Shown: piece by piece, positions 14,457 through 26,646 of the stretch | How the letters are laid out: every line of letters starts with the position of its first letter | Position numbering within the stretch: position 1 is the first letter of the stretch | Origin: Sulfurimonas sp. HSL3-1 | GTDB lineage: Bacteria > Campylobacterota > Campylobacteria > Campylobacterales > Sulfurimonadaceae | Reading direction: 5' to 3' | Assembly: GCF_039645995.1 (NCBI RefSeq) | Contig: NZ_CP147920.1 | Span: 992,001-1,056,000 of the forward strand | Length of the DNA stretch: 64,000 nucleotides | Made by a program: the position numbers and the translations under genes | Notes under the pieces: model-generated | Seen by the model: the letters and a program-made list of their open reading frames with translations, nothing else | Databases searched by the model: none | Told to the model about the DNA's origin: nothing

Positions 14457-14744
14457 ATGTCAAAATCGATGGTTGAGATCAAAACGCTAAAACTGGCGCA
14501 TACGCAAAACGGCACGATCAGTATCGCGCATATCGAGGAGCCTTACGGCAAACACAGCAGCCCGGTGGTCAGCATCGCCATCGCATTGGAAGGGGCATCC
14601 AGCGACTGGAAGGTCCACCTTCCCTACGAAAACATCGATGAGGTGATCAAGGGACTCCAGGAAGCGAAGGCATCCAACGAGGGGATGCCGCATCACGACA
14701 AACATACCGAAGACCTGAATGCCGACACCGGCGGCGGCGCCTAA
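14457..14744 (+). CDS. Unrecognised small soluble protein
   Basis: A 95-residue protein with a strong AAAGGAG ribosome site and no signal or membrane segments. The middle (IAHIEEPYGKHSSPVVSIAIALEGASSDWKVHLP) looks like a pair of beta strands, with a helical patch (YENIDEVIKGLQEA) after it; the tail is polar and rich in Asp, His and Gly. The family is unknown. It ends in a 4-base overlap with the convergent macro-domain gene. Confidence 0.55.
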   Translation: MSKSMVEIKTLKLAHTQNGTISIAHIEEPYGKHSSPVVSIAIALEGASSDWKVHLPYENIDEVIKGLQEAKASNEGMPHHDKHTEDLNADTGGGA

Positions 14745-15286
14745 GAGCGCTCCGCTCCGAAGATGCGCTGCATCAGCATATAGTCGCCTTCGGAGTGCGC
14801 ATACAGTAATACCTCACACTCAAAATCTACAGCACTCCTGAAAAAATCACGATAGATCTCCAGTACACGCCGCTTGTCCAGCCCGCCGACCCCTGTGCCC
14901 ATCAGCGGCAGCGCCAGCGTGACGTTCTTGTCGTGCAGCGCGGCAAAGGAAGCCAGAGCGGTCTGAATGTTATGGAGGATGGTTGTGATCTCCCCTAGCC
15001 GCGGCAGGGCCTCCGTCGCGCCCGGGTTGTAGTCCATGACAGCGGCATGCAGCACGCTGCCGAAACGCGGGCAGCCGCCGGTGGCGACAACATCCCCTTT
15101 CTGCAGCTTTCCCGTTTCCCTTAACGCGCGGGTCATTGCGTTCTGCAGGGCCGGGCCGCAGGCGGCTGCGAACGCGCCCGAAACGCCCGAACCCAATGTC
15201 AGTACCGTATTGGACGGATTGACGATGAAATCCGATGCCGGTGCGTTCAGGAGGTTTCCTGTTCTGAGGGTTACGTGATAGGCCAT
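14741..15286 (-). CDS. Macro domain protein (ADP-ribose-binding)
   Basis: 181 residues that are almost entirely one macro domain. Signatures include LRTGNLLNAPASDFIVNPSNTVL near the N-terminus (the usual N-x-A-N position reads NPSN), GSGVSGAF, a glycine-rich stretch KGDVVATGGCP, and LALPLMGTGVGGL near residue 140. Macro domains bind ADP-ribose or remove it from proteins and nucleic acids. The substrate cannot be decided. TACAAT is 6 bases from the ATG with no ribosome site, so the message is likely leaderless. Confidence 0.85.
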   Translation of the reverse strand: MAYHVTLRTGNLLNAPASDFIVNPSNTVLTLGSGVSGAFAAACGPALQNAMTRALRETGKLQKGDVVATGGCPRFGSVLHAAVMDYNPGATEALPRLGEITTILHNIQTALASFAALHDKNVTLALPLMGTGVGGLDKRRVLEIYRDFFRSAVDFECEVLLYAHSEGDYMLMQRIFGAERS

Positions 15287-15391: not shown

Positions 15392-15443
15392 TGTAGTAAC
15401 TTTAACAAATTACTACAATATGCTTGACACAAAAGTAGTAATT
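15392..15443. promoter_or_regulatory. Half-site array (GTAGTAA) upstream of the integrase-arm/EAL gene
   Basis: TGTAGTAA (15392-15399) and TTACTACA (15410-15417) are perfect inverted arms, 10 bases apart. A third copy, AGTAGTAATT (15434-15443), lies inside the spacer of the promoter for the gene at 15542. Such a set suggests a protein that binds AGTAGTAA half-sites and blocks or controls that promoter. The encoded protein has its own DNA-binding-like N-terminus, so autoregulation is plausible. Confidence 0.55.
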
Positions 15444-15453
15444 GTGCTAGCAT
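15424..15453 (+). promoter_or_regulatory. Sigma-70-like promoter of the integrase-arm/EAL gene
   Basis: TTGACA (15424-15429) is a perfect -35 box, followed after 18 bases by TAGCAT (15448-15453) as a weak -10. It leaves a leader of about 80 bases before the ATG at 15542, with GGAGG just before the start. This is one of the very few clear -35 boxes in the window. The repeat half-site lies in the spacer. Confidence 0.5.
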
Positions 15454-15541
15454 GGAAAAATGTGTGAAACCGTCGTTGCAGTGATGACGGTGCCAAAGAG
15501 GCCCATATGGCCACAAAGAGGATGACTGGACGGAGGGCGCC

Positions 15542-17107
15542 ATGCCGATTCGGACAATTCAGGACAAACACTACAAAGGGATCAGCGAACTCTACCGTAA
15601 GTCTGACGGGAGGGTGACGGGTTACTACGTTACTTACCGCGACGAGGAAGGGAAGCCGGTCAAGCGAAGGGTCACGGCCGATGATAAGGACGAGGCGCTT
15701 CGCAAACTGGTCGACATCAAAGATGAAGTTGACCGACTGAAACAGGAGAAGGCGATGAGCGCGCTCCCCCTAACCTCTGAATACCCGGGCTCGAAGCATA
15801 ACGCGACGGCGGCAGGGGCCGTGGACGTCACGCATGAAGTCCACTCGATGCATGATTGCCAGAAGCAGATCTCCGCGTATGAGGGCAACGCCGTTGTCAT
15901 GCTGATCGACATTGTCGCTTTCGACGACATCCGTATTCTCTACGGATACGAGAACGCGGAGCGGATGGTGGCGGAGCTTGAAACGCAGGTGCGCGCGACG
16001 CTTGGCCGGTTCGAAGAGGACGCCCATTTCCGTGCCCTCGGTTCCGCGCCGTTCGATTTCGACCTCTACCATCTTTATGCCGACCGGCTCTGCCTTTTTG
16101 TCAAAAACGACTTTTCGCACCGCCTGCTTGATTTCATTGCCGAAAAACTCCACGCCTGTGTATCGGAATACGCCTTTCATGTCGTAGGGGGGAACAACAT
16201 CCATATCAATGTCTCAATAGGAGCAAGCAAAGCTGACGGCGCCGTCAGCCTGATGTACGCGGAAAAAGGACTGCAGGAGGCGAAGAGGCTGCACAACAGC
16301 TACATCTTCTATGACAGCGGCTCCGCCGAGCGTAACACCCATTTTTCCAATAAAACCTATGAACTGCTTCAGGAGAATATCGAGCACAAAAGGGTGACGC
16401 CCTATTTGCAGGGGATCTTCCGTAACGGTGAACTGACGAAACCGGAGAAGTTTGAAAGCCTGATGCGGCTGGTAGACCGGCAGGGGCGGGTGCTTTCGCC
16501 GGCGGCTTTCTTGGAGAAGTCCAAAGAATACCGCCTCTACACCGAGCTGATGCTCCAGATGATCGACAAGGTCTTTGACGTGCTGGCGCACTACGACATC
16601 GCGGTGACGCTGAACCTCTCTTATGTCGATATCAACAACGTGCTTTTAAGAGAGCGACTGCTTGAGAGGCTGGCGAAGGAGAAGCGCGGCAACAGGCTGA
16701 CGGTTGAAATCCTCGAGAGCGACCAGATCCGTGACCTGGAAATTGTCAACGAGTTCATTTTCCGGCTGAAAAAGCGCGGTGTTTTGATCGCCATCGATGA
16801 TTTCGGAAGCGGATTTTCGAACTATGACAACCTGCTGAACCTCGAAATCGATTACGTCAAGCTCGACGGATCGCTGATCTCGAATATTCATGACCGCAAA
16901 CACCGCATTATCCTCGGCAACATGGTCAATATCTGCCATGAGCTTGGGATCGAGACCGTGGCGGAGTACATCAGCGATAGAGGGGTGCTGCGCATGGCGC
17001 AGAGCATCGGTGTGGACTATTTCCAGGGGTACCATCTGCACAAGCCGCAGCAGTGGGATGAGGCGCTGCAGAGCTTTGGTTACAGGGAGGCCGCCTATGC
17101 ATCATGA
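15542..17107 (+). CDS. Cyclic-di-GMP phosphodiesterase with integrase-arm-like N-terminus
   Basis: 521 residues, with GGAGG before the ATG. Residues ~10-65 read as three beta strands and a helix (ELYRKSDGR, TGYYVTYRDEEG, PVKRRVTA, EALRKLVDIKDEVDRLKQE), the shape of AP2/arm DNA-binding domains at the N-terminus of tyrosine recombinases. Residues ~110-265 are a GGDEF-like domain without the signature (YADRLCLF stands at the active site), so it should not make cyclic-di-GMP. Residues ~275-515 are an EAL domain with its usual ligands: ESLMR, NLS, VEILES, DDFGSG, VKLDG, ETVAEY and FQGY. Activity as a phosphodiesterase is likely. It overlaps the next gene by 11 bases. The DNA-binding role of the N-terminus is inference. 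Confidence 0.75.
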   Translation: MPIRTIQDKHYKGISELYRKSDGRVTGYYVTYRDEEGKPVKRRVTADDKDEALRKLVDIKDEVDRLKQEKAMSALPLTSEYPGSKHNATAAGAVDVTHEVHSMHDCQKQISAYEGNAVVMLIDIVAFDDIRILYGYENAERMVAELETQVRATLGRFEEDAHFRALGSAPFDFDLYHLYADRLCLFVKNDFSHRLLDFIAEKLHACVSEYAFHVVGGNNIHINVSIGASKADGAVSLMYAEKGLQEAKRLHNSYIFYDSGSAERNTHFSNKTYELLQENIEHKRVTPYLQGIFRNGELTKPEKFESLMRLVDRQGRVLSPAAFLEKSKEYRLYTELMLQMIDKVFDVLAHYDIAVTLNLSYVDINNVLLRERLLERLAKEKRGNRLTVEILESDQIRDLEIVNEFIFRLKKRGVLIAIDDFGSGFSNYDNLLNLEIDYVKLDGSLISNIHDRKHRIILGNMVNICHELGIETVAEYISDRGVLRMAQSIGVDYFQGYHLHKPQQWDEALQSFGYREAAYAS

Positions 17108-17771
17108 CGACAAACAGCTGTCGGAGATAACGGACAAGACGATGCGCCGGCTGATGAACGAAGCGATCGTTCTGCCTTCAAAATACCGGGAGACCTTTGA
17201 AGAGGAGCAAAAGCGTCTGGATGCGTCCCGAGAAGCGGAGGGTGGAGATGCCACGCGCCGTGAGATCGATCTTCTGCGGACCCATCTCTTTTCCGACGAC
17301 ATCACACCGGCGAAAAACCGTCTCTGGCTCTACAAACAGAAGCTCAATGCACGCCAGGGGTTTAACGATGAGGGCTACCTGGTCAGCCTTCGTATCCAGG
17401 ATTACGGGACGATTGTCGATGAATACGACAGCATCATCGGTAACCGGGTTCTGATGCTCGTCTGCAGCTATGTGATCGAATTCCTGAAAATGCAGCGGGT
17501 GAATTTTGAAATTGCCCGCTATGGCGGAGGGGATTTCCTCCTCTTTATGCATCACATTGATGAGGGGGAAGTTGATGCACTTCTAGTCAATATGCAAAAC
17601 GGCGCCGCTAACCATACGTTCAAACACCGCAGCAGAATTTTCGGGCTGACTTTTGATGCCGCCTCAATCCGCTATCTCGAAAATGAACCGTTTGCTACCG
17701 TCATGGAGCAGCTCGAAGAAAAAAGGTTTGAAAAAAGGGTCAAAGAGGGTGGTACCGCTGGCCGGACTTGA
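17097..17771 (+). CDS. Degenerate GGDEF domain protein whose end lies in a tRNA gene
   Basis: The ATG at 17097 has GGGAGG 6 bases upstream and overlaps the preceding gene, so the pair is co-translated. The 224-residue product has a helical N-terminal region (MNEAIVLPSKYRETFEEEQKRL, residues ~20-45), then a GGDEF-like domain. Its signature reads RYGGGDFLLFM rather than GGDEF, with the first acidic residue lost, so cyclase activity is doubtful. The last eight residues and the stop are encoded by the antisense strand of tRNA-Leu (17750-17833), so this end was created by joining to the tRNA 3' end. It may be a regulator or partner of the neighbouring EAL protein. Confidence 0.7.
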   Translation: MHHDDKQLSEITDKTMRRLMNEAIVLPSKYRETFEEEQKRLDASREAEGGDATRREIDLLRTHLFSDDITPAKNRLWLYKQKLNARQGFNDEGYLVSLRIQDYGTIVDEYDSIIGNRVLMLVCSYVIEFLKMQRVNFEIARYGGGDFLLFMHHIDEGEVDALLVNMQNGAANHTFKHRSRIFGLTFDAASIRYLENEPFATVMEQLEEKRFEKRVKEGGTAGRT

Positions 17772-17833
17772 ACCGGCACGTCCGAAGACAACGGATTTTG
17801 AATCCGTCGTGTCTACCATTCCACCACAGCGGC
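17750..17833 (-). tRNA. tRNA-Leu (anticodon CAA)
   Basis: The minus strand folds as a class II tRNA of 84 bases: acceptor arms GCCGCTG and CAGCGGT, anticodon loop TTCAAAA in an ACGGA/TCCGT stem (anticodon CAA at 17798-17800), a long variable arm, a T arm with GGTTCAAGTCC, and encoded ACCA. Base pair 1-72 is a G-U wobble. The 3' 22 bases overlap the coding sequence on the plus strand, an arrangement often seen where integrases use a tRNA end. A -10 box TACAAT precedes it. Confidence 0.95.
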
Positions 17834-22946: not shown

Positions 22947-24068
22947 TCATCCCTTTACATTACAAGCAGCCGGGCCGTTGCCGTCCACCGTATCGATGTC
23001 GCACGCCGTTTGCGCCGTGCAATCAAAGAGGGGTTGTTTTTCTTTGGCGGGCCACTGTTCCCAGGGTTCGACGTCATAGTCCATTTCCAGGATCCAAGGA
23101 TGGTAAGCCGTCGGATGCTTTGCATGACGTTCGAGCACGCTGGCGTGGACGAGGGGTTTGCCGCGGGTCGCCGCGTCCCAATGGCGCTGCTCGCGGCGGT
23201 AGAGACGGGTCAGCCATGTCCCGCGCGAATCGTGCATCTTCCCCTGGGCATCTTCATGGGGATCGACCGTGTGTTTCGGATAGATCAACAGCCCGTGGTT
23301 GATCGCCTGCCGGGTGAGCCAGACCAGGGGGATGTCGGAGAGATCCTGCTCCGCATACCCGCCGCCGACGTCGGTATGCATCCCGCTGAACCAGACCTGT
23401 TTGACGGTCTGCCACTCTTTGACCTGTTGCTCCCACAGCACCGGGTGGAAGGTTTTGCGTTCGTCGTCGATGGCCAGGGCTTGGTAGGCGTGCGTGATGG
23501 TTTCACTGAGCCTGAAATTGTGGAAACGGTGGCGGAACCCCGGAATGCCGTCGAGCAGGACGCTGAGGCTCTTGATGGGAAGGCCGAGTGCGGCGACGGT
23601 GTCGTAGCAGCCGATAAACTCCACCTTGGTCCACATATTGTGATGGTCTTTCAAAAAGGCAGCGGCTTTCTCCTTGCGTTTGCCCTCATCCTCGATCATG
23701 TAGATATCATAGGCTGTGGCGATCAGTTCGGGACGGGATTTCGGCAGGATGCCGAAGTAGTGCAGGAACCCCGAGAGGCTGCGCACCGTAGCCGCGCCGC
23801 GGCTGAACCCGAACAGGAAGATCTTGTCCCCGGCTTCATAATGCTCAAAGAGAAAACGGTAACACTGCTGAATATTGCGGGAAATGCCGAAACCGCCGAC
23901 GTTCCCGGTCAGCCGGTGGATACCCGTGCCAAGCCCCGGGTCGTAAAAGGCGATCTGCCGCGGGGTGCGGTCCTCGATCATGTTGAAGAGCTTATAGATA
24001 TTGGTGTTGTTGCCTTTGCCGCCCTCCTGACCGGTCCCGTCGGAGAAGATTACGATATTTTTTGCCAT
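22947..24068 (-). CDS. DUF2235/Tle1-like alpha-beta hydrolase
   Basis: The ATG at 24068 with GGGATGAC upstream is preferred; a start 10 codons earlier would add an unlike leader. 373 residues. The opening NIVIFSDGTGQEGGKGNNTN is a DUF2235 hallmark. The nucleophile elbow FGFSRGAA is near residue 115, a central Asp is in IGCYDTVAALG near 160, and GMHTDVGGGYAEQDLSDIPLVW near 235 holds the third active-site region. DUF2235 includes the type VI secretion Tle1 phospholipases and cytosolic lipases of unknown role. There is no signal peptide, PAAR, VgrG or immunity gene here. A second paralogue is at 30331-31485. Confidence 0.8.
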   Translation of the reverse strand: MAKNIVIFSDGTGQEGGKGNNTNIYKLFNMIEDRTPRQIAFYDPGLGTGIHRLTGNVGGFGISRNIQQCYRFLFEHYEAGDKIFLFGFSRGAATVRSLSGFLHYFGILPKSRPELIATAYDIYMIEDEGKRKEKAAAFLKDHHNMWTKVEFIGCYDTVAALGLPIKSLSVLLDGIPGFRHRFHNFRLSETITHAYQALAIDDERKTFHPVLWEQQVKEWQTVKQVWFSGMHTDVGGGYAEQDLSDIPLVWLTRQAINHGLLIYPKHTVDPHEDAQGKMHDSRGTWLTRLYRREQRHWDAATRGKPLVHASVLERHAKHPTAYHPWILEMDYDVEPWEQWPAKEKQPLFDCTAQTACDIDTVDGNGPAACNVKG

Positions 24069-24069
24069 G

Positions 24070-26541
24070 TCATCCCTTTTTGATTTGATCCCGTACAAAG
24101 TATTTGGCGACCAATGCTCCCGCCGTCATCGGTTTGTCAAAATAGTAGCCCTGGAAAATATCGCATTTCATTCTCTTGAGCAGCTGTACCTGGCCTTCCT
24201 TCTCGACGCCTTCGATCACGACTTTCATCCCCAGGGCATGCCCGAGTTCGGTCATGGTCTTGACGATCACGGCTGTTTTGGCGTTGAATTCGATTTCGTC
24301 GATAAAACTCTTGTCGATTTTAATGGTATCGACCTGGAAGGATTGGAGGTAGGTAAAGGTGGAGTAACCCGTCCCGAAGTCGTCGATGGCGATCTTGATG
24401 CCCGCATCGCATAGCGACTTGATGGTTTCGATGTTATCGGTAGAGCTTTCGACGATGATCCTTTCTGTCAATTCGAGTTCGAGGAGGTCTGGATTGAGAT
24501 TGTACTCGGAGAAAAGGTCCAGAAGGTCCCGGATGAAGTAGGTGTCGTTGATATCGACTGCCGTGACGTTGACGGCGGCAAAGATGCCGTCCCATCCAAT
24601 CCGCTGCCACTGTTTGAGCGCCTTGCAGGACTCCTCAAGGACCCAATGCGTGATCCGCAGAATCAGCCCGTTCTGTTCGGCAATGCCGATGAAGGTGTCG
24701 GGGGTGAGTATCCCCCGTTTGGGGTGACGCCACCGCAGCAGGACTTCGACGCCGGCGAGACTGTTGTCTGTGGCACTGATCTTCGGCTGAAACAGCAGGA
24801 AAAACTCGTTGTTATCCAGGGCCTCGAAAAGATCGTTGTGGAGCTTCAGACGTTCGATGGCCATGTTGTCCAAGACGGGGTTGAAGAAATAGAATCGGTT
24901 CTTGCCGAGCTCCTTTGCCTTGTGCAGCGCCGTGTCGCTGTTTTTCATCAGGGTGTCGTAGTCATCCCCGTCATTGGGATAGAGCGCTATTCCCACGCTG
25001 GCCGTAATATGGATGATGTGGTTGTCGAGGTTAAAGGGTTTGCGGATCTGGACAAGAAGCTGGTCGACGATATGCGTCAGGCTCTCCGTCGACTGGATCC
25101 GTTCGAGGATGATGAGAAACTCGTCCTGCCCCATGCGCAAAATGGTGTCAAAACGCCGGAGATGGGCTTTGAGACGGCCACTGAGCTGCATCAGCAGCTG
25201 GTCGCCGACCTTGTGGGTCATCGAGTCGTTGATGTTCTTGAAGTCATCGATGTCGATGGAGAGGACGGCAAAGGGGAGTTTGTCTTTTTTCGCATAGCTC
25301 ATGGACGATGCGAAAATACGCTGCAGGGAGTGACGGTTCCCGATGCCCGTCAGCTGGTCGATGTAGAGCAGCGACTGCAGCTGGTCCCCCAGGGCGTAAG
25401 AGAGGACGATGATTTTGAGCAGTACCCCGAACTGCTGGGAGTGCAGGATAAACCAGGTCGACGGCAGTAGACCGAACTTATGCAGTGCCAGCAGGGTGGA
25501 ACCGGCGAAAAAGAGACTCCAGGCACCAAGGTAGAAACGGGCCCGTCTTTTATTGTGCTTCTGGATGACAAAACCGGCGGAGAGCAGTATGATGGGCGTA
25601 ATAGCCGCCAGGAGGGTCGTCAGTTTGACCGTCAGGTAGTAGATGTCGAAAAAACTCATGATCATGGGGACGAGGTTGATGATGATGATGACGTTCAAGA
25701 CGGAGTGCAGTTTCGGCGTATAGAGTTCCGTTTCCAAAAAGCGCTGGCCGAAAAGGATGGCCGACAGGATCGTAAGATCGACAAAGAAGGGGACGCCTTC
25801 GTTGTACAGCCAGGGGTGATCGGGGAAAAGCAGCATAGGCGTGAAGCCGTCGAAAGAGAGCTGCATCATCGTATAAAAGACGATAAAGCCGACATAATAG
25901 AGATAGATGGCTCTGCGGAAGATCAGGAAGAAAATAAAGTTGTAGAGCGACAAAATAATGAGGATGCCGTAAAAAATGCCGTAAAAGAGGAAGCGTCTCT
26001 GGTCGGCATCCTGCAGGGCATCCGGGTCATTGATGGTGATGGGGAGATCGATCGACGATTGGGAACGGATCTTCCAGACCAGTGTCGTGGTCTTGCCCGG
26101 AAGCATCGTGATCGGGAAACGAAACGTCAGGCTCGACAAGGGACGTGAAGCGACGGGGCGCTTGTCCCCGCTGGCAAAATGAGCGATGACTTTTTTGTTT
26201 TCGATCACGTAGAGATCGACATAATCGAGCAGGGGGTTTTCCAGGTCGACGATCCATGCATTCTCGGTATGGGAGGTGTTCTTCAGTGTCGAACGCAGCC
26301 AGATGGTGTCATCGACATAACCGAAGGGGAGCTGGGCCTTGTCAACGGTGTTGCAGATTGCCGGGCTGCTGCCCTCCAAAAACATGTCGACGTTCAGCAT
26401 ATTCAGATGGTCCATGCAGAGCAGGACAGAGTCGGAGAGATCATACTGTTTTCCGCTGGAAGTGACATTGATGACAGGTTCGGCGGAGAGGGGATTCAAA
26501 GTGAGAAAAATCAGAATAAAAATATGAAAAACCGTTTGCAT
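24070..26541 (-). CDS. 7TMR-DISM membrane sensor with GGDEF and EAL domains
   Basis: Start taken at 26541, where a signal peptide begins (MQTVFHIFILIFLTLNPLSA); 823 residues. Order: periplasmic 7TMR-DISMED2-type sensor domain (~30-165, with LPFGYVDDTIWLRSTLKN), seven membrane spans (~180-385), GGDEF domain (~400-560) and EAL domain (~575-815). The GGDEF signature is RMGQDEF, with Gln replacing the second Gly, so cyclase activity is questionable. The EAL keeps EVLLRW, NVTAVD, LELTERI, DDFGTGYS, IKIDKSFI, VIEGVE and FQGYYF, so phosphodiesterase activity is expected. It ends one base before the start of the Tle1-like gene. It likely senses a carbohydrate or other ligand in the periplasm. Confidence 0.85.
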   Translation of the reverse strand: MQTVFHIFILIFLTLNPLSAEPVINVTSSGKQYDLSDSVLLCMDHLNMLNVDMFLEGSSPAICNTVDKAQLPFGYVDDTIWLRSTLKNTSHTENAWIVDLENPLLDYVDLYVIENKKVIAHFASGDKRPVASRPLSSLTFRFPITMLPGKTTTLVWKIRSQSSIDLPITINDPDALQDADQRRFLFYGIFYGILIILSLYNFIFFLIFRRAIYLYYVGFIVFYTMMQLSFDGFTPMLLFPDHPWLYNEGVPFFVDLTILSAILFGQRFLETELYTPKLHSVLNVIIIINLVPMIMSFFDIYYLTVKLTTLLAAITPIILLSAGFVIQKHNKRRARFYLGAWSLFFAGSTLLALHKFGLLPSTWFILHSQQFGVLLKIIVLSYALGDQLQSLLYIDQLTGIGNRHSLQRIFASSMSYAKKDKLPFAVLSIDIDDFKNINDSMTHKVGDQLLMQLSGRLKAHLRRFDTILRMGQDEFLIILERIQSTESLTHIVDQLLVQIRKPFNLDNHIIHITASVGIALYPNDGDDYDTLMKNSDTALHKAKELGKNRFYFFNPVLDNMAIERLKLHNDLFEALDNNEFFLLFQPKISATDNSLAGVEVLLRWRHPKRGILTPDTFIGIAEQNGLILRITHWVLEESCKALKQWQRIGWDGIFAAVNVTAVDINDTYFIRDLLDLFSEYNLNPDLLELELTERIIVESSTDNIETIKSLCDAGIKIAIDDFGTGYSTFTYLQSFQVDTIKIDKSFIDEIEFNAKTAVIVKTMTELGHALGMKVVIEGVEKEGQVQLLKRMKCDIFQGYYFDKPMTAGALVAKYFVRDQIKKG

Positions 26542-26646
26542 GGGTTCATTATACTCCATAGGCATCTAATTTGTATTAATAACGTGATAAATGATTTTGC
26601 GCTTGTTAGTTGAACTGGTACAATTAGTTTTTTGAAAAGGATGAAT

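Follow-up and report, generated by a model that had tools for sequence, protein, structure and literature searches.

An integrase-type arm domain as the probable DNA-binding module of a predicted cyclic-di-GMP phosphodiesterase in Sulfurimonas

What an integrase-like N-terminus might do on a protein predicted to degrade cyclic-di-GMP is the question raised by the 521 amino acid product of an open reading frame at 15542..17107 (+) of the window, the 64,000 nucleotide stretch of the Sulfurimonas sp. HSL3-1 genome that was analysed. The protein is conserved in four species of the genus (96, 88 and 87% identity to the orthologs in the other three) and consists of an integrase-type arm domain of three strands and a helix (residues 1-72, 15542..15757 (+)), assigned from sequence, fold and dN/dS; a disordered, fast-evolving linker (residues 73-100, 15758..15841 (+)), recognised by pLDDT, identity and dN/dS; a degenerate GGDEF domain (residues 101-265, 15842..16336 (+)); and an EAL domain (residues 266-505, 16337..17056 (+)). 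The first-pass annotation had described a dead GGDEF followed by an intact EAL, with no recombinase catalytic domain, and this was borne out: the GGDEF fell under the Pfam cut-off (E 0.03) and reads YADRL where aligned relatives retain xxDEF/xxDEY, thus lacking the GG(D/E)EF active-site motif of diguanylate cyclases; the EAL matched its Pfam model over residues 276-502 (E 1.6e-50) and, in an alignment with 24 relatives, keeps the expected catalytic motifs ESL, NLS, EILES, DDFG, KLD, AE and QG; and Pfam returned no match in the protein to the tyrosine recombinase catalytic domain PF00589, nor to any helix-turn-helix family. On sequence grounds the EAL domain is predicted to be a cyclic-di-GMP phosphodiesterase and so would hydrolyse this messenger, and the 19 GGDEF matches in the genome show it to possess cyclic-di-GMP signalling. 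Within the same bacterial family, degenerate GGDEF-EAL phosphodiesterases are 31-37% identical to the protein over the GGDEF-EAL region and carry the same EAL motifs, but in the relatives whose whole sequence was read (L008-L010, L013) the N-terminus is of another kind and no arm domain is present.

When residues 1-78 were searched against 200 family genomes, the matches apart from the four orthologs were frames in other genera, mostly 370-427 amino acids long, and these proved on reading to be tyrosine recombinases or fragments thereof. The arm domain is approximately 33-45% identical to the N-termini of complete tyrosine recombinases from other genera (E 2.5e-12 to 1e-6, open frames of 395-427 amino acids), the top match being 44% identical over 70 residues (E 2.5e-12), and a Phage_integrase domain was found in the three recombinases tested (E 3.5e-26 to 2e-16). 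Conserved columns include R4, K9, Y11, E16, Y29, Y32, R33 and K41. An AlphaFold model of the full-length protein predicts strands at residues 14-18, 25-33 and 39-44 and a helix at 49-73, with block pLDDT values of 82-91 up to residue 60, and the N-terminus folded alone gave a similar layout (mean pLDDT 78), so that the integrase-arm-like N-terminus proposed from the initial reading agrees with both the recombinase similarity and the predicted fold.

The structural comparison with integrase arm domains that had been suggested pointed the same way. Foldseek with the arm model found no significant match in the PDB (none below E 0.7), and it was a second structural alignment that ranked integrase arm domains first: the best of 999 realigned chains were 3jtz (Z 5.8) and 3ju0 (Z 5.5), the arm-type binding domains of the HPI and HAI7 integrases, aligned over 61-62 residues, with an AP2 repeat (6sy0, Z 3.2) and the Tn916 integrase N-domain (1bb8, Z 3.0; 1b69, Z 2.4) ranked lower. 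A Z of 5.5-5.8 is modest on its own and the case is carried by the sequence evidence. The proposed check against Pfam did not go in favour of the arm, as no Pfam or NCBIfam model matched residues 1-80 above threshold, yet the arm idea holds; the recombinases of the same group likewise fall below threshold with the curated arm models (Pfam clan CL0081), one reaching PF14657 at E 0.83. A PDB sequence search with the isolated N-terminus gave no usable match, a PHROG integrase family matched the arm at E 0.014, and a profile alignment of the arm directly to Tn916 Int alone was not significant. The Tn916-type arm domain is N-terminal, has three strands and one helix and is often missed by Pfam (PMC8138268). 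The arms of IntTn916-type integrases (PMC8138268; 1b69, 1bb8) and of the HPI and HAI7 integrases (3jtz, 3ju0) share with the 521 amino acid protein the N-terminal three strands and C-terminal helix, but in the latter no core-binding or catalytic domain follows the arm.

The array of half-sites that had been noted upstream of the gene was found as three copies of GTAGTAA: site I at 15393..15399 (+), site II at 15410..15416 (-) and site III at 15435..15441 (+), each with 7/7 bases invariant in the four species. The 10 bases separating sites I and II are also invariant, compared to 1/5 of those between the -35 and site III and 39/119 from the start of the neighbouring macro-domain gene to the array, and conservation of all 21/21 half-site bases is significant against the surrounding 155 bp (P 0.004). 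The inverted pair formed by sites I and II (GTAGTAA-N0-30-TTACTAC) is present at just one place in the 2.5 Mb genome, remains unique there even at 2 mismatches, and appeared in 0/100 shuffles of the window. No further half-site clusters were found elsewhere in the genome and so targets beyond the protein's own promoter are not evident. A fourth GTAGTAA, at 15622-15628 (-) within the arm coding region, is accounted for by Tyr-Tyr codons that are conserved.

Site III falls within the spacer of a putative promoter at 15424..15453 (+), which has a TTGACA -35 (15424-15429), an 18 bp spacer and an extended -10 TG-N-TAGCAT (15448-15453), giving 10/12 consensus matches with both hexamers invariant in the four species. 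Downstream, the 5' leader can form a stem-loop, CCGTCGTTGCAGTGATGACGG at 15469..15491 (+) (minimum free energy fold), largely conserved in the 4 species; two stem-loops are predicted in all at 15469-15512, in which changes between species preserve pairing by eye. Overall, the leader does not exceed shuffled sequences in stability (z -0.8), and it had no Rfam match at the gathering score. The promoter would serve a putative operon whose second gene (17097..17771 (+)) encodes another degenerate GGDEF protein (Pfam GGDEF E 2.6e-4, under cut-off; orthologs present), reading RYGGGDF here and RYAEGDF or RYTEGDF in the orthologs rather than GG(D/E)EF, and the intergenic region is shared with a divergent macro-domain gene at 14741..15286 (-) (Pfam Macro E 9e-15).

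We consider it likely that an integrase arm was domesticated and gives a cyclic-di-GMP phosphodiesterase the means of binding DNA and controlling its own promoter. The arm (residues 1-72) would bind half-sites I-III and, as site III is between the -35 and -10, its binding should keep RNA polymerase off, giving autorepression of the operon of the arm-EAL and second GGDEF genes and perhaps repression of the divergent macro gene too. The inverted pair of sites I and II would suit a dimer held through the EAL domains, and binding or hydrolysis of cyclic-di-GMP by these domains may change the dimer and hence the occupancy of the DNA, as proposed for PdeL. We infer that the arm binds DNA, that this represses the promoter and does not activate it, that the EAL hydrolyses cyclic-di-GMP, and that hydrolysis and binding are coupled.

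PdeL (YahA) is a trigger phosphodiesterase of E. coli, an EAL protein which binds its own promoter under the influence of cyclic-di-GMP (PMC12564702). The 521 amino acid protein resembles it in pairing what would be an N-terminal DNA-binding domain with an EAL predicted to be catalytically competent, in having a putative operator at its own promoter and in the proposed link between cyclic-di-GMP and transcription. It differs in that PdeL has a LuxR-like helix-turn-helix where the integrase arm domain is found here, in its extra dead GGDEF and in the likely opposite sign of autoregulation, and so it may work like PdeL without being a PdeL-type member.

The sign of the regulation is where the strongest alternative lies, namely that a DNA-tethered phosphodiesterase activates the promoter, sites I and II recruiting polymerase in a positive feedback. 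Those two sites do lie upstream of the -35, an activator position, and PdeL activates its own gene (PMC12564702), but the placing of site III within the spacer argues against this, as does the perfect TTGACA -35, a sign of a strong promoter that would have to be repressed; we regard activation as possible but rather unlikely.

The same half-site is found at integrases related to the arm. Clusters, defined as two GTAGTAA within 45 bp, were present at 14/26 related integrase loci and at 0/26 GGDEF/EAL control loci of the same family, against 0.025 of 26 expected from first-order Markov sequences, these 26 integrase loci being related to each other and so not independent events. At three of the loci (L039, L041, L045) the repeats precede the integrase start by 21-97 bp, and at three further loci (L042, L043, L046) GTTGTAA is clustered in place of GTAGTAA, a natural experiment on how the arm recognises its site. 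L038, the recombinase whose arm is nearest in sequence, lacks a GTAGTAA array within 300 bp upstream. IntTn916-type integrases have the half-site in common with the promoter described here: in a Tn916-type element AAGTAGTAAATTC, which includes a half-site copy, lies 15 bp past the integrase gene. The Tn916 Int NMR complex was reportedly made with a GTAGTAAATTC duplex; the Tn916 site sequence was not found in the open-licence papers searched. At a separate locus (L044:2679-2693), the sequence GTAGTAATTATGCTA that follows a broken integrase gene exactly matches the stretch from site III to the -10 in the promoters of genomes G036 and G010. Taken with the sequence similarity and the fold match, the common DNA half-sites give integrase-arm ancestry support of three kinds.

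A more speculative role, added to autoregulation or in its place, would be for the protein to sit on the arm-type sites of related integrative elements and, depending on cyclic-di-GMP, to block or gate integration and excision, so that a domesticated integrase fragment would provide a form of element immunity. In the sister species G036 the arm-EAL gene coexists with a related integrase preceded by tandem GTAGTAA sites (L084, 1883-1901), and so such targets are present in the same cell; we nevertheless think this role improbable.

The mobile-element connection extends to the setting of the locus. The tRNA gene that had been seen nearby is a tRNA-Leu(caa) at 17750..17833 (-) (ARAGORN), with its 3' end adjoining a block that lies between the CTI gene and this tRNA, the second GGDEF gene extending into the tRNA 3' end; the block also includes a 95 amino acid ORF at 14457..14744 (+) with no family above cut-off. 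In the sister species G050 (FtsK 84% identical) the arrangement is empty, the CTI gene ending 8-10 bp from tRNA-Leu, so that the 95 amino acid ORF and the macro, arm-EAL and second GGDEF genes are absent there, and no macro homologue was found anywhere in this draft genome (89% complete); only remnants of the block are present in G056. In G036 a 5 kb insert (L069:11205-16230), with directly repeated copies of the tRNA 3' end on either side, lies between the GGDEF gene and tRNA-Leu and carries GmrSD_N, HEPN_RiboL-PSP and a third large gene (PADLOC matches NsnA and PD-T4-2_A), with no integrase seen within it. The empty site and this insert together mark tRNA-Leu as a place of integration in the genus, at which the block was probably gained a single time. 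The suggestion of an origin in an integrated element is supported by the empty site in G050 and the later insertion in G036, but the far-side att repeat of the block was not found, as a search of the rest of the window showed no directly repeated second copy of the tRNA 3' end. Further along are a Tle1-like phospholipase-domain protein (22947-24098 (-), Pfam PF09994, E 2e-72) and a 7TMR-DISM membrane GGDEF-EAL protein (24070-26565 (-)).

A position at a tRNA 3' end is the usual place of integrases and their arm sites, and might suggest that the N-terminus is an integrase remnant fused in frame by accident, with leftover attP arm sites and no DNA binding by the arm. Several results speak against this. 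The arm is under strong purifying selection, its dN/dS across the four species being 0.04-0.09 compared to 0.04-0.1 for the EAL and approximately 0.3 to 1 for the linker, which makes a neutral relic unlikely; the linker is 52-56% identical between species pairs in which the arm is 94-96% identical, and has pLDDT <50 at residues 75-97. The array, too, is invariant amid the far less conserved intergenic DNA, and its half-sites surround the promoter as an inverted pair, unlike the mostly 11-13 bp direct repeats at integrases. An accidental relic is therefore very unlikely. Least credible of all is the view that the N-terminus resembles integrases by convergence, through a small strand-strand-strand-helix fold that has nothing to do with DNA binding. 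That the isolated domain reaches no Pfam model above threshold would agree with this view, but the top recombinase match (44% over 70 residues, E 2.5e-12) and the half-sites common to integrases and promoter largely refute it.

Arm-profile searches covering 228 genomes at family level and 397 at class level found the arm-EAL fusion in the four sister species only, the remaining matches being recombinase-length frames or short fragments (many of the frames were read, and four class-level matches, G363, G502, G507 and G531, were judged by length only). Long frames with weak arm matches (L081-L083, L115) were not EAL fusions, a scan of genome contigs returned only a distant EAL protein, and the one weak match in viral contigs lay inside a phage-type ORF and was neither an integrase nor an EAL fusion.

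To our knowledge, transcription factors derived from recombinase DNA-binding domains are hardly documented in bacteria, and none were found in the open-licence literature, coverage of which was partial. Domestication of the arm as a regulator of its own promoter remains our preferred reading, by which part of a mobile element seems to have been turned into a signal-linked gene switch in these Sulfurimonas species. Arm domain and DNA half-site appear to have stayed paired, and so the recognition sequence is predictable and directly testable. If true, this would provide a new DNA-binding module for cyclic-di-GMP trigger enzymes and would show how a mobile-element integrase can feed host regulation.
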